This document shows positions 32,747-48,644 of a stretch of 64,000 nucleotides of DNA, piece after piece. The position numbers and the translations under genes are program-made. A model generated the notes under the pieces. It saw nothing but the letters and a program-made list of their open reading frames with translations, had not been told where the DNA came from and ran no database searches. Within the stretch, counting starts at the first letter, position 1. The number at the start of each line of letters is the position of its first letter. The stretch comes from Aeromicrobium sp. 9AM (GTDB lineage: Bacteria > Actinomycetota > Actinomycetes > Propionibacteriales > Nocardioidaceae): contig NZ_LR733304.1 in NCBI RefSeq assembly GCF_902506105.1, forward strand, positions 620,001 to 684,000, read 5' to 3'.

Positions 32747-32923
32747 ATGAAGATTTTTCGCGTCGCCACCAGCTGGTTCTCCACCGGTTCCAAGCGGGAA
32801 GAGGACGGTGTCACGTCGATCGAGTACGGGCTGATAGCGACAGCGATCGCCCTGTTGGTGGCCGCCGGTGTCGGCGGTCTGGCCCCCAAGGTCCTCGCGC
32901 TCTTCAACGCAATCGGCACCTGA
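32747..32923 (+). CDS. flp: Flp-type pilin 1 (Tad cluster 1)
   Basis: 58 residues. A short leader ends at Gly21, followed by VTSIEYGLIATAIALLVAAG, giving Glu at +5 and the adjacent Tyr that define Flp pilins cut by a CpaA/TadV-type prepilin peptidase. The mature pilin is a single hydrophobic helix. It is the first gene of Tad cluster 1. A TACCTT element (32693-32698) may be its -10. Confidence 0.93.
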   Translation: MKIFRVATSWFSTGSKREEDGVTSIEYGLIATAIALLVAAGVGGLAPKVLALFNAIGT

Positions 32924-33064
32924 CCCGCGCCCCGAAAGATTCGCGAGTGTCCTCCTCGGTCAGCGTGTAGCCAATAGTCATTGAGAGCCATAAAAGATGG
33001 CCCGAAACAATTCCTCAAAACGCCCAAAACGGAAATTGTGACGCTCTACCTTTTGAGCAGGGAG

Positions 33065-33084
33065 AGTCACTCGTTCGGGTGACT
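33065..33084 (+). promoter_or_regulatory. Inverted repeat in leader of second pilin
   Basis: AGTCAC (33065-33070) and GTGACT (33079-33084) pair around an 8-base loop, 24 bases before the second flp gene. The gap 32924-33107 is unusually AT-rich for this window and may hold a separate promoter. Confidence 0.45.
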
Positions 33085-33107
33085 TAAGAAGTTAGAGGGA
33101 GTAACTC

Positions 33108-45384: not shown

Positions 45385-46808
45385 CCACCTTGAGTCAGCG
45401 CCTGCAAGCGGCCCGGTCCGGCGAGGTGCTGCCGCCAGCCGTTCCGAGCGCCGGTGTGGAAGCCGGGGCGCAGACGATCCACGAGCCATCCGTGAGCGCT
45501 GCGGAGTCGGCCACGGCGACCGACGTACGCCTGGCGGAGGGCCTGCAGGTGGTCAAGGCGCGCGCCGTCGAGACCCTGTTCGACCGGATCGGCGTACGCA
45601 TCAACGACTCGAGCCTCACCGAGGAGCAGCTGCGCCTGTTCGTGCGGGCCGAGCTGTCGCGGATCGTCGACGAGGAGCCACTGTCACTGACGACGGAAGA
45701 ACGGCGCCGGCTGATCCAGGACATCGAGGACGACGCCCTTGGCCTGGGTCCGTTGCAGAGGCTGCTCGCCGACCCCGAGGTCACGGAGATCATGGTCAAC
45801 GGCTGGGACCGCATCTACGTCGAGCGGTTCGGCAAGCTGTCGCCGAGCGGAGCGCGATTCAGCTCCGAGGAGCACCTCCGTCGGGTCATCGACCGCATCG
45901 TGGGTCGGGTCGGACGCCGGGTCGACGAGTCGTCGCCACTGGTCGACGCGCGACTCTCGGACGGGTCGCGCATCAATGCGATCATCCCTCCGCTGGCCGT
46001 CGACGGTTCCTCGCTCACGATCCGCAAGTTCTCCGACACGCCGTTCGGCGTCTCGGACCTGGTGGGGTTCGGCACGATGACCAAGGGCATCGCCGAGCTG
46101 CTGCATGCCTGCGTCCAGGCGCGACTCAACATCCTGGTCTCCGGCGGCACGGGCACCGGCAAGACAACCCTGCTCAACGTGTTGTCGTCATTCATCCCAG
46201 GAGACGAACGGATCGTCACGATCGAGGATGCGGTCGAGCTTCGGCTCCAGCAGGAGCACGTCGTGCGCCTCGAGAGCCGGCCGGCCAACATCGAGGGCCG
46301 CGGCGAGGTCAGCATCCGCGAGCTGGTACGCAACTCGCTGCGCATGCGCCCCGACCGCATCGTGGTCGGCGAGGTGCGTGGCGGGGAGAGCCTCGACATG
46401 CTGCAGGCCATGAACACCGGTCACGACGGATCGATCTCGACGCTGCACGCCAACTCGCCCCGAGACGCGATCGCTCGCCTTGAGACCTTGGTGCTGATGG
46501 CGGGCATGGAGCTGCCGGTACGCGCCATCCGTGAGCAGGTCGCCTCGGCCGTCGACCTGATCATCCAGCTGACCCGCATGCGCGACGGCTCACGCCGCAT
46601 CACCGCGGTGACCGAGGTCATCGGCATGGAGAACGAGACCGTGGTGCTGCAGGACGCTTTCGTCTTCGACTACGCCGCAGGGCTCGACGTGCACGGGCGG
46701 TTCCGTGGCAGCCAGGTCTCGACAGGCATCCGCCCTCGGTTCACCGACAAGTTCGAGGAGCTGGGCATCAAGTTCAACCTCGACAGCCTCCAGCAAGCCG
46801 GGGCGTGA
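45381..46808 (+). CDS. cpaF: CpaF/TadA pilus assembly ATPase (cluster 2)
   Basis: 475 residues. It is strongly similar to the cluster 1 ATPase over most of its length: [25 protein letters not shown], Walker [10 protein letters not shown] (about 255-263), [27 protein letters not shown] and TGHDGSISTLHAN. The N-terminal 50 residues differ most. All catalytic boxes are intact, so both clusters should have a working motor. Confidence 0.95.
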   Translation: MTTLSQRLQAARSGEVLPPAVPSAGVEAGAQTIHEPSVSAAESATATDVRLAEGLQVVKARAVETLFDRIGVRINDSSLTEEQLRLFVRAELSRIVDEEPLSLTTEERRRLIQDIEDDALGLGPLQRLLADPEVTEIMVNGWDRIYVERFGKLSPSGARFSSEEHLRRVIDRIVGRVGRRVDESSPLVDARLSDGSRINAIIPPLAVDGSSLTIRKFSDTPFGVSDLVGFGTMTKGIAELLHACVQARLNILVSGGTGTGKTTLLNVLSSFIPGDERIVTIEDAVELRLQQEHVVRLESRPANIEGRGEVSIRELVRNSLRMRPDRIVVGEVRGGESLDMLQAMNTGHDGSISTLHANSPRDAIARLETLVLMAGMELPVRAIREQVASAVDLIIQLTRMRDGSRRITAVTEVIGMENETVVLQDAFVFDYAAGLDVHGRFRGSQVSTGIRPRFTDKFEELGIKFNLDSLQQAGA

Positions 46809-46812
46809 CGTC

Positions 46813-47748
46813 GTGCTGATCATCGCCGGAATCATCTGCGTGGCACTGGCAGTCAGCGCCGTGGCCTATCTCCTGCTGGCCGCGCCCACGCCGCGGGTGG
46901 CGCCGGAGCGTCGCCAGTACGGTCCGGTCGAGCAGCGGGCCGCGTTCTCCCTGTCGTCGGAGCGTCTCGTCGAGCGGGTAGACGAGGCTCTGCGGCGGAG
47001 CTCCTGGACTCCGTTCGGCGCCAAGGAGCTCGAGCTCGCCGGACTTCGGATCACGCCGGGCAATCTCGTGGTCACCGTAGCCGCAGGGTGCGTCACGGTG
47101 TTCTCGGTGCTGTCCTTGCTGACCGGCCAGGTGGCGGTGGGGTTTCTGGCCGCCGTCCTGATTCCGGTGGGTGCCAAGGTCTACGTCCAGCTGTTGACCG
47201 ATCGTCGTCGTGCGCAGTTCACCAAGCAGCTCGACAGCACGGTGCAGATGATCGCCTCGGCGCTGAGAGCGGGGTTCAGCTTCCCCCAGGCACTCGACGC
47301 CGTAGCGCGGGACGCCGACTCGCCAACCGCCGAGGAGTTCGCCCGCGTCATCAACGAGAACCGCCTCGGGCGAGACCTCGTCGTGGCGCTGGAGCAGACG
47401 GCGGACCGCATGCAGAGCGAGGACTTCCGGTGGGTTGGCGAGGCCGTGGCCATCCACCGGGACACCGGTGGCAACCTGAACGAGGTCCTGGACCGGGTCG
47501 GTGCCACGATGCGTACCCGCAACCAGTTCCGCGAGCAGGTCAGCTCGCTCGCGTCGGAGGGCAAGTTCTCGGCCGTCGTCCTGATGATCCTGCCGGTCGG
47601 TGTGGCGGGCTTCTACTCGATCGTCAACCCTGACTACATGGCGCCCTTGGTGGGCACGAGCTTCGGGTTCGTGCTGCTGGGTGTCTCGGTCGTGCTGTAT
47701 GTCGTCGGTGGCCTGTGGATGCGCAAGATCGTGGATGTGAAGTTCTGA
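46813..47748 (+). CDS. tadB: TadB inner-membrane platform protein (cluster 2)
   Basis: 311 residues. The membrane segment LIIAGIICVALAVSAVAYLLL opens it. The GspF-like domain (QLDSTVQMIASALRAGFSF, FRWVGEAVAIHRDTGGNLNEV) is nearly superposable on the cluster 1 copy, and two membrane helices end it. I chose the GTG at 46813, four bases after the cpaF stop. Confidence 0.92.
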   Translation: MLIIAGIICVALAVSAVAYLLLAAPTPRVAPERRQYGPVEQRAAFSLSSERLVERVDEALRRSSWTPFGAKELELAGLRITPGNLVVTVAAGCVTVFSVLSLLTGQVAVGFLAAVLIPVGAKVYVQLLTDRRRAQFTKQLDSTVQMIASALRAGFSFPQALDAVARDADSPTAEEFARVINENRLGRDLVVALEQTADRMQSEDFRWVGEAVAIHRDTGGNLNEVLDRVGATMRTRNQFREQVSSLASEGKFSAVVLMILPVGVAGFYSIVNPDYMAPLVGTSFGFVLLGVSVVLYVVGGLWMRKIVDVKF

Positions 47749-48644
47749 TGCTGATCCTCGGAGCCCTGATCCTCTTCGCGGCCTGCGCCGCACTGGCGGT
47801 CGCCTTCGGCGTCGTGGGTGCTTCGGACAAGGTCGTGGTCGCCCGCCTCGCCGTGACCACGCCGTCGCGGCAGCGCGAACGTGAGAGCGACAGCCCCGAC
47901 CTGGTGGTCGAGAACAAGCGTTCCGGTCTGACGAAGCTGCTCGCCTCTGCCACGGCGGTCCGCAAGATCGAGCGCAACATCATGCTGGCCGGGCGGCCAC
48001 CGGGCTGGACGCTGCGCCGGATCCTGGTGCTCAAGCCCGTCCTGGGCTGCGTGGGCCTGTTGATCCTGCTAGCGGCCCTGTCCGGCGGGGGAGGCACTCT
48101 GGCCTGGCTCGTCGGCATCGCGGCAACGCTGGCCTGCTTCTTCGCGCCCGACGCCATCATCAGCAGGCGGGCGCAGGACCGGCAGCTCCAGATCCAGCAC
48201 GACCTGCCGGACATCCTCGACCAGGTGACGATCTCGGTCGAGGCGGGGCTGAGCTTCGAGGCGGCGTTCGCCCGCATCGGGGAGCGGCGCAAGGGACCGC
48301 TCGCCGATGAGATCGTGCGTACCGTCCAGGACATGCGGCTTGGCATGAGCCGCCGCGAGGCATATCAGGCGCTGGCGGACCGCACAGACGTCGAGGACCT
48401 GAGCAGCTTCGTCAAGGCGGTGACCCAGGGTGAGCAGTACGGCGTCTCGATCTCGTCGATCGTCCGCAACCAGTCTGAGGAGATGCGCATGCGTCGCAAG
48501 ACGAGAGCCGAGGCGACGGCGCAGAAGGTGCCGGTGAAGATTCTGTTCCCCCTGATCACCTGCATCTTCCCGGTGCTGATGATCGTGGTGCTCGCACCGG
48601 CATTCATCAACCTGGCCAACACCTTGACCAACGGCGACCTCTGA
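47748..48644 (+). CDS. tadC: TadC inner-membrane platform protein (cluster 2)
   Basis: 298 residues. N-terminal and central membrane segments precede a GspF-like domain (DLPDILDQVTISVEAGLSFEAAF, SSFVKAVTQGEQYGVSISSI) and the terminal membrane pair starting VPVKILFPLITCIFPV. The ATG shares its A with the tadB stop (TGATG). It ends cluster 2, 15 bases before the stop of a convergent gene. Confidence 0.93.
   Translation: MLILGALILFAACAALAVAFGVVGASDKVVVARLAVTTPSRQRERESDSPDLVVENKRSGLTKLLASATAVRKIERNIMLAGRPPGWTLRRILVLKPVLGCVGLLILLAALSGGGGTLAWLVGIAATLACFFAPDAIISRRAQDRQLQIQHDLPDILDQVTISVEAGLSFEAAFARIGERRKGPLADEIVRTVQDMRLGMSRREAYQALADRTDVEDLSSFVKAVTQGEQYGVSISSIVRNQSEEMRMRRKTRAEATAQKVPVKILFPLITCIFPVLMIVVLAPAFINLANTLTNGDL

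Follow-up and report, generated by a model that had tools for sequence, protein, structure and literature searches.

Two Tad pilus lineages in tandem at a probable cluster-exchange site in Aeromicrobium sp. 9AM

We analyzed a 64,000-nt stretch of the genome of Aeromicrobium sp. 9AM (positions 620,001 to 684,000 of contig NZ_LR733304.1, a 2.98-Mb contig in a 4.19-Mb assembly; hereafter the window, in the genome labelled G000). It encodes two Tad/Flp pilus gene clusters in tandem on the + strand, cluster A at 32747-40033 and cluster B at 41343-48644. The two clusters represent two lineages found at one chromosomal site, and they are inherited as units. Judged from the sequences, G000 carries one exchangeable locus in two versions that diverged long ago, and we consider it probable that these are intact, long-separated Tad lineages standing side by side at a site where clusters are exchanged, each probably building its own fibre and both sharing a prepilin peptidase.

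Ancestry, site and gene content of the clusters

We searched for relatives carrying this class of CpaF in the genus, the family and a sample of the class, scoring the best few candidates per genome. The class was present in 36 of 49 genomes of the genus (E ≤ 1e-130), and the surroundings were fetched for 34 of the 35 other genomes among these (not G004), plus the outgroup G070. In a tree of CpaF, TadB and TadC from 38 clusters in 36 genomes, A joined the cluster of G044 (Aeromicrobium stalagmiti; support 100/97, starred), then those of G013 (100/100, starred) and G037 (100/99, starred), whereas B joined those of G010 and G020 (100/100, starred) in a clade that also included G023, G030 and one copy from G046 (100/100, starred). 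An approximately unbiased (AU) test rejected a clade of A with B (p 4.6e-49), and a tree of CpaE agreed with that of the three motor and platform proteins. CpaF of A was 88% and CpaF of B 84% identical to the CpaF of other species, compared with 72% between the two. All eight called cluster genes of G044 found their best match in the window in A, while every called gene of the full clusters in G010 and G020 found its best match in B. The second copy of G046 fell in a clade with G025, G011 and G018, and grouping the two G046 copies was likewise rejected (AU p 5.2e-39). From these placements and rejections we concluded that neither tandem in the genus is a recent duplication.

The site is flanked by genes for a sigma factor, a DUF4349 protein and the secreted protein hyp1, and others beyond, on the left, and by alkB, rubredoxin and TetR genes, and others beyond, on the right. 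In 26 of the 34 other genomes of the genus, at least one side of the cluster had the window's neighbours nearby, and in 19 of those both sides did within the stretch first fetched; in G010 and G020 the left-side neighbours appeared in a further stretch. The cluster was inverted relative to these neighbours in some genomes (G021, G006) and lay elsewhere in seven (G045, G014, G005, G003, G009, G017 and G015), while the location in G037, on a 6.9-kb contig, was not assignable relative to the site. In the first six of these seven (L043-L048), the class stood at another chromosomal place and was followed by a gene for a protein of 759-938 aa. Five starred cluster lineages of the CpaF, TadB and TadC tree were found at the site.

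Junctions were compared at the DNA level. The match between G044 and the window ended at 40089 and resumed at 50129, these points being about 40 bases apart in G044 (L022 7321 to 7279); for G013 it ended at 40023 and resumed at 50162, with about 75 bases between. Because the match stops and resumes in this way in both genomes, B and two membrane-protein genes, here called GTC1 and GTC2, form one clean block of about 10 kb. In G010 and G020 the match ended where hyp1 does (32645) and resumed at GTC1 (40202 or 40248), which makes A the extra block relative to those genomes; they carry another membrane-protein gene (468 aa) in its place. Absence was thus reciprocal: the B block was missing from G044 and G013, and an A-type cluster was missing from G010, G020 and G023. 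Shared flanks, different cluster lineages between them and sites lacking a block, which together mark an exchangeable cassette, were all found here.

Tad systems process their prepilins with a peptidase, and CpaF then drives TadB and TadC, which assemble Flp together with TadE and TadG into a fibre; CpaE positions the machine. The earlier note on this DNA had described two complete clusters with identical gene order, and this held: A and B both read flp, flp, tadE, tadG, cpaB, cpaE, cpaF, tadB, tadC (Table 1), separated by the single gene GTC1, and all 18 genes were open frames, each with a match to its expected Pfam family (E ≤ 3e-5). The Flp prepilin processing site G/XXXXEY (PMC4322843) was present in all four flp genes, including those of B, whose pilins scored under the Pfam Flp_Fap cut-off (24.2 and 26.1 vs 32.2 bits). 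The TadE and Tad (TadE/G-like) models were above cut-off in both clusters, as was T2SSF for all four TadB and TadC proteins. The best NCBIfam model for CpaF was the TadA family TIGR03819, slightly under cut-off in both copies (354 vs 373 bits). The claim that catalytic motifs were kept in both copies was also correct for CpaF (Walker A GGTGTGKTT, GEVRGGE and HAN) and CpaE (KGGVGKS). Neither cluster contained a prepilin peptidase gene, so that "complete" here means complete by the actinobacterial standard, in which the peptidase gene is not included.

Amino-acid identity between A and B was 72% for CpaF, 51% for CpaE, 48% for TadB, 46% for TadC, 44% for CpaB, 37% for TadE and 31% for TadG. The strong divergence that the earlier note saw in the pilins, TadE and TadG was real, but its view that motor and platform proteins look alike did not apply to all of them.

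Beyond the window, the genome contained five T2SSE matches over the Pfam cut-off, each with a T2SSF pair nearby, and a sixth, weak match below cut-off. Besides A and B there were three Tad-type loci, C (C7:88.7 kb), D (C7:1000 kb) and E (C7:2613 kb). The genome gave a single Peptidase_A24 match, outside the clusters (C6:1143647-1143964; L020:7465-8076) and adjoining genes that we read as aroE and aroC; a divergent second peptidase could lie below the search threshold. Since this was the only peptidase match for five Tad-type loci, prepilin processing is probably shared among them.

Exchange between species and order of arrival

We propose that species exchange entire Tad clusters as units at the site bounded by the sigma/DUF4349/hyp1 genes and the alkB-rubredoxin genes, probably through homologous recombination within the conserved flanking DNA. 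One cluster occupies the site in most species examined, whereas in G000 a second has come to lie beside the first.

As a comparison gene we used MetG, for which 29 of the 30 genomes asked gave a sequence. In the MetG tree G000 grouped with G010, G020 and G023 (100/96, starred), the latter three forming a clade (99/96, starred), and G044 fell in another group. The motor genes rejected the clade of G010, G020 and G023 (AU p 7e-66), because the G023 cluster joined that of G030 in the motor tree (99/95, starred), a pairing that MetG in turn rejected weakly (p 0.025). This conflict suggests that exchange between species has probably taken place in the B lineage, around G023 and G030.

On the order of arrival of the two clusters the indications point both ways. 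We compared motor with MetG distances over 433 pairs (median ratio 2.78), and A gave low ratios with G044 (1.63) and G013 (1.95), in the range of picked same-lineage neighbours (G010-G020 1.38, G002-G008 1.82, G007-G019 2.01), while B gave 4.72 with G010, 5.12 with G020 and 5.80 with G023. These ratios favour vertical inheritance of A and the arrival of B from elsewhere. Control Tad loci C and D were used for the same question, and the identity between A and G044 exceeded that at locus C for CpaF (88 vs 78%), TadB (79 vs 59), TadC (74 vs 63) and TadE (86 vs 63). In addition, the motor genes rejected a grouping of A with G013 (p 0.011), and MetG leaned toward placing G013 with the G000 group (87/88). 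The control locus and this rejection favour A, instead, as the incomer. Fourfold sites give no decision on the order of arrival, being close to saturated in the Tad genes that were compared. MetG also rejected G000 with G044, alone (p 0.00086) and together with G013 (p 1.6e-6), but these tests force G000 away from G010, G020 and G023 and so have no bearing on A; the MetG tests that do fit the carriers of A returned p 0.043 with five genomes and p 0.179 with ten.

Several observations weigh against the reading of two exchanged, working clusters. The evidence on which cluster arrived second is contradictory, with distance ratios and control locus pointing opposite ways, and two of the printed same-lineage pairs also had high ratios (G006-G021 3.93, G041-G042 3.36). 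No integrase or transfer gene was present among the called genes, a repeat search not having been made. The ratio of nonsynonymous to synonymous substitution (dN/dS) was at most 0.42 in each of the eight genes compared between A and G044 and between B and G010 (flp1 excluded), which suggests that both clusters are under constraint and working, but dS was high and synonymous sites were near saturation in the Tad genes compared, so that these ratios are rough; in tadG, dN exceeded dS in the most diverged pairs (0.83/0.78 for B-G023, 0.90/0.83 for A-B). A scan for sigma-70-type promoter-like sites returned 0 where 0.9 were expected, a result that says little in an actinobacterium, and the same scan returned 5 terminator-like sites (5.9 expected). 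Finally, the A and B lineages were sisters, with support of 95/97 in a reduced 13-row motor tree and 80/53 in the full tree.

The sister relationship leaves room for a much older duplication, before the species split, in which an ancient A-B tandem was followed by differential loss: G044 and G013 would have lost B, G010, G020 and G023 would have lost A, and G000 would have kept both. The distances among A, G044 and G013 fit the vertical descent that this history implies, and the MetG groupings implied by A were not rejected with ten genomes and were borderline with five. The history nevertheless requires several clean losses, and it sits poorly with the order of the tandems, in which the B-type cluster is first in G046 and second in G000, with distances from B to G010, G020 and G023 that exceed those of the same-lineage pairs we looked at, and with the G023 cluster, which is misplaced relative to MetG. 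We regard it as unlikely, though it deserves to be kept in mind. A recent tandem duplication in this lineage with subsequent divergence of the pilins, which is the reading of the earlier note and has in its favour the identical gene order, shared strand and adjacency of the clusters, is extremely improbable unless the trees mislead badly: the check which that note had itself proposed, trees of the motor and platform genes, placed A and B with different species and rejected their union, each CpaF is closer to that of another species than to its neighbour, and a reading suggested by gene order alone is in this way corrected by trees.

Probable function of the two clusters

Pilins, minor pilins, localisation ATPase, motor and platform are encoded separately in each cluster, which therefore most likely assembles its own fibre. 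Because each encodes all parts except the peptidase, two fibres with a shared peptidase appear likeliest, the single prepilin peptidase encoded elsewhere probably serving both. Two working machines with different fibres is thus the likeliest functional reading, and the intact motifs and the constraint indicated by dN/dS make it probable that both clusters work.

A different possibility, and the main rival as to function, is that the two clusters together build one pilus. There is a precedent in Micrococcus luteus, in which, according to the available portion of the report, Flp filaments and transformation require both tad-1 and tad-2 (PMC4322843). In G000, likewise, there is one peptidase match for all loci, and ComEC is encoded, so that a role in DNA uptake is possible. 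Relatives carry an A-type or a B-type cluster alone at the site, however, so that neither needs the other there, and each cluster has flp genes of its own, whereas the available part of that work calls the pilin-like genes of tad-1 in M. luteus TadE/F-like. In gene order, which was the only feature compared, loci C and D resemble the M. luteus loci in starting with an ATPase gene. We consider a joint pilus improbable.

It is also decidedly improbable that one cluster is silent or decaying and that only the other makes pili. In its favour, the sister species G010, G020 and G023 have an additional tadG'-cpaE' pair, lacking motor genes, upstream of the B cluster (L028:15645-18150, L027:1634-4055 and L024:2140-4518, respectively). 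The CpaE proteins of these pairs formed a clade of their own (96, starred, in a quick tree that carried a long-branch warning), and their P-loop lysine was lost (KGGVGRS in G023, RGGVGRS in G020). In A and B themselves, by contrast, all 18 frames are open, the catalytic motifs are intact, and dN/dS lies well below 1 for both A-G044 and B-G010. In G023, an unannotated flp-like frame follows the tadG'-cpaE' pair.

A more far-reaching view, which we offer tentatively and hold to be doubtful, is that the alkB-side locus is a pilus-exchange site at which whole clusters as well as modules are swapped. The motor-less tadG'-cpaE' pairs would borrow the motor of a neighbouring cluster, co-resident clusters would represent a standing stage of part mixing, and two or more fibres would be fed by one peptidase.

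Tad pili are usually encoded by one cluster per locus. At a site where unlike whole clusters replace or join each other, a single step could equip a cell with a second surface fibre, and the single and double carriers within this genus form a natural set in which to ask whether neighbouring Tad machines stay separate, share a peptidase or exchange pilins.

Tandem clusters elsewhere and neighbouring genes

The earlier note called two full sets side by side unusual in an actinobacterium, which holds as far as rarity in the family is concerned but not as uniqueness, since further tandems exist. Two copies of the CpaF class were found in 2 genomes of the genus (G000 and G046), and in 8 of the 257 family genomes that carried the class (of 341 searched; E ≤ 1e-150), counts that may miss more diverged second copies since scoring was limited to the few best candidates of each genome. 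Only G000 and G046 (2/341) had two cpaF genes no more than 10 kb apart on the same strand. In the other six two-copy genomes of the family, the copies lay on different contigs (four genomes) or on one contig at 0.79 and 3.1 Mb from each other (two genomes). The class sample of 296 genomes, some of them of this family, contained the CpaF class in 63 (E ≤ 1e-120) and two copies in 7; pairs within 10 kb were those of G000 and of G342 and G576, both of another family.

The tandem of G046 is of the same kind as that of G000, with two full clusters on one strand, but combines other lineages in another order, the B-type cluster standing first and a cluster of a third lineage second. G342 and G576 also each carry two full clusters, whose cpaF genes share a strand and lie within 10 kb of each other. 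Their upstream CpaF proteins were 83% and their downstream ones 91% identical, and the tree united each of these pairs (99 and 100, both starred); because upstream copies pair with each other and downstream copies likewise, this tandem is common to the two species, a point in which it differs from that of G000, besides belonging to another family. On L106, one of the stretches holding these tandems (L106/L107), we observed a peptidase-like gene upstream (18808-19269), named by eye from its sequence. A tandem of two unlike whole Tad clusters at an exchange site is, then, uncommon and not unique.

Clusters A and B resemble Tad/Flp (type IVc) loci in general in having Flp with G/XXXXEY, TadE, TadG, CpaB/RcpC, CpaE/TadZ, CpaF/TadA, TadB and TadC, and differ from them in that two whole clusters stand in tandem and no peptidase gene lies in the locus. 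Tad loci without tadV are called typical of actinobacteria in the available portion of the M. luteus report, which describes two tad clusters, tadV in neither, and one distant peptidase (PMC4322843). M. luteus is thus similar to G000 as an actinobacterium with two tad clusters and a peptidase outside the loci, and differs in that, as that text has it, a single competence pilus depends on both tad-1 and tad-2. Excerpts from a study of Bradyrhizobium diazoefficiens describe four Tad clusters within a single genome, which were examined with deletion mutants, but this organism is a diderm and those excerpts mention no tandem pair (PMC12918737). A further report notes, in its accessible text, Gram-positive genomes that have as many as four tad operons (PMC3244431), and the available part of Denise et al. 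mentions no tandem of whole Tad clusters. Our literature search found no work on Tad/Flp pili in Aeromicrobium or on Tad pili in nocardioids, and no description of a tandem pair of whole Tad clusters. Tad pili, and multiple and transferable Tad clusters, are already known; what is uncommon is the tandem of two unlike whole clusters.

Table 1. Features of the tandem Tad locus and its edges (window positions)
Feature	Position	Strand	Basis
hyp1, sortase-like secreted protein, left edge of Tad locus	32133..32660	+	Pfam Sortase E 0.092 only
flpA1, Flp prepilin	32747..32923	+	Flp_Fap E 9.7e-10; G/VTSIEY
flpA2, Flp prepilin	33108..33299	+	Flp_Fap E 1.8e-14; G/VTAIEY
tadE_A, minor pilin	33389..33796	+	TadE E 6e-12
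tadG_A, minor pilin/tip-type protein	33781..34893	+	Tad (TadE/G-like) E 1.3e-9
cpaB_A (RcpC)	34914..35618	+	RcpC E 8.6e-12
cpaE_A (TadZ)	35615..36811	+	ParA-type ATPase E 5e-14; KGGVGKS
cpaF_A (TadA), assembly ATPase	36808..38211	+	T2SSE E 3.1e-69; Walker A/GEVRGGE/HAN
tadB_A, platform protein	38211..39143	+	T2SSF E 6.1e-19
tadC_A, platform protein	39146..40033	+	T2SSF E 2.1e-18
GTC1, polytopic membrane protein, glycosyltransferase-C-like (weak reading)	40198..41241	+	DUF2142 E 0.0025, below cut-off
flpB1, Flp prepilin; start possibly GTG at 41370	41343..41573	+	Flp_Fap E 3e-5, below cut-off; G/ATLVEY
flpB2, Flp prepilin	41673..41864	+	Flp_Fap E 7.6e-6, below cut-off; G/ASMTEY
tadE_B	41885..42304	+	TadE E 1.2e-7
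tadG_B	42292..43386	+	Tad (TadE/G-like) E 3.6e-7
cpaB_B (RcpC)	43436..44152	+	RcpC E 2.8e-11
cpaE_B (TadZ)	44149..45384	+	ParA-type ATPase E 5.9e-16; KGGVGKS
cpaF_B (TadA), assembly ATPase	45381..46808	+	T2SSE E 8.8e-68; motifs intact
tadB_B, platform protein	46813..47748	+	T2SSF E 1.3e-17
tadC_B, platform protein	47748..48644	+	T2SSF E 9e-19
GTC2, polytopic membrane protein, right end of B block	48660..50063	-	no family above cut-off
B block as a unit (B, GTC1 and GTC2)	40090..50128		missing from A-only G044

GTC1 and GTC2 bracket B and gave only weak matches, to DUF2142 and DUF6044, below cut-off. In G010 and G020 a gene 66% identical to GTC1 lies upstream of the B cluster, which is bracketed by membrane-protein genes there too, and a 34% match lies beside another lineage in G025. 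GTC2 is absent from G044, G013 and G023, where alkB closely follows tadC. As a guess, GTC1 and GTC2 might act in pilin glycosylation.

The assignment of hyp1 as a sortase is weak, as the Pfam match in Table 1 was its only one and NCBIfam gave none. All 15 aligned rows contained EHDYCGG and VLQTC, with a conserved His and Cys; no conserved Arg followed the Cys, and one preceded it. The predicted structural model, with a mean predicted local distance difference test (pLDDT) score of 47, was too poor to use. A number of Aeromicrobium genomes retain this gene as the left-hand border of the Tad locus. On the other side, beyond the alkB-rubredoxin genes, genes for DUF2149, MotA/ExbB-family and PKD-domain proteins were grouped at 53626-56097 of the window.

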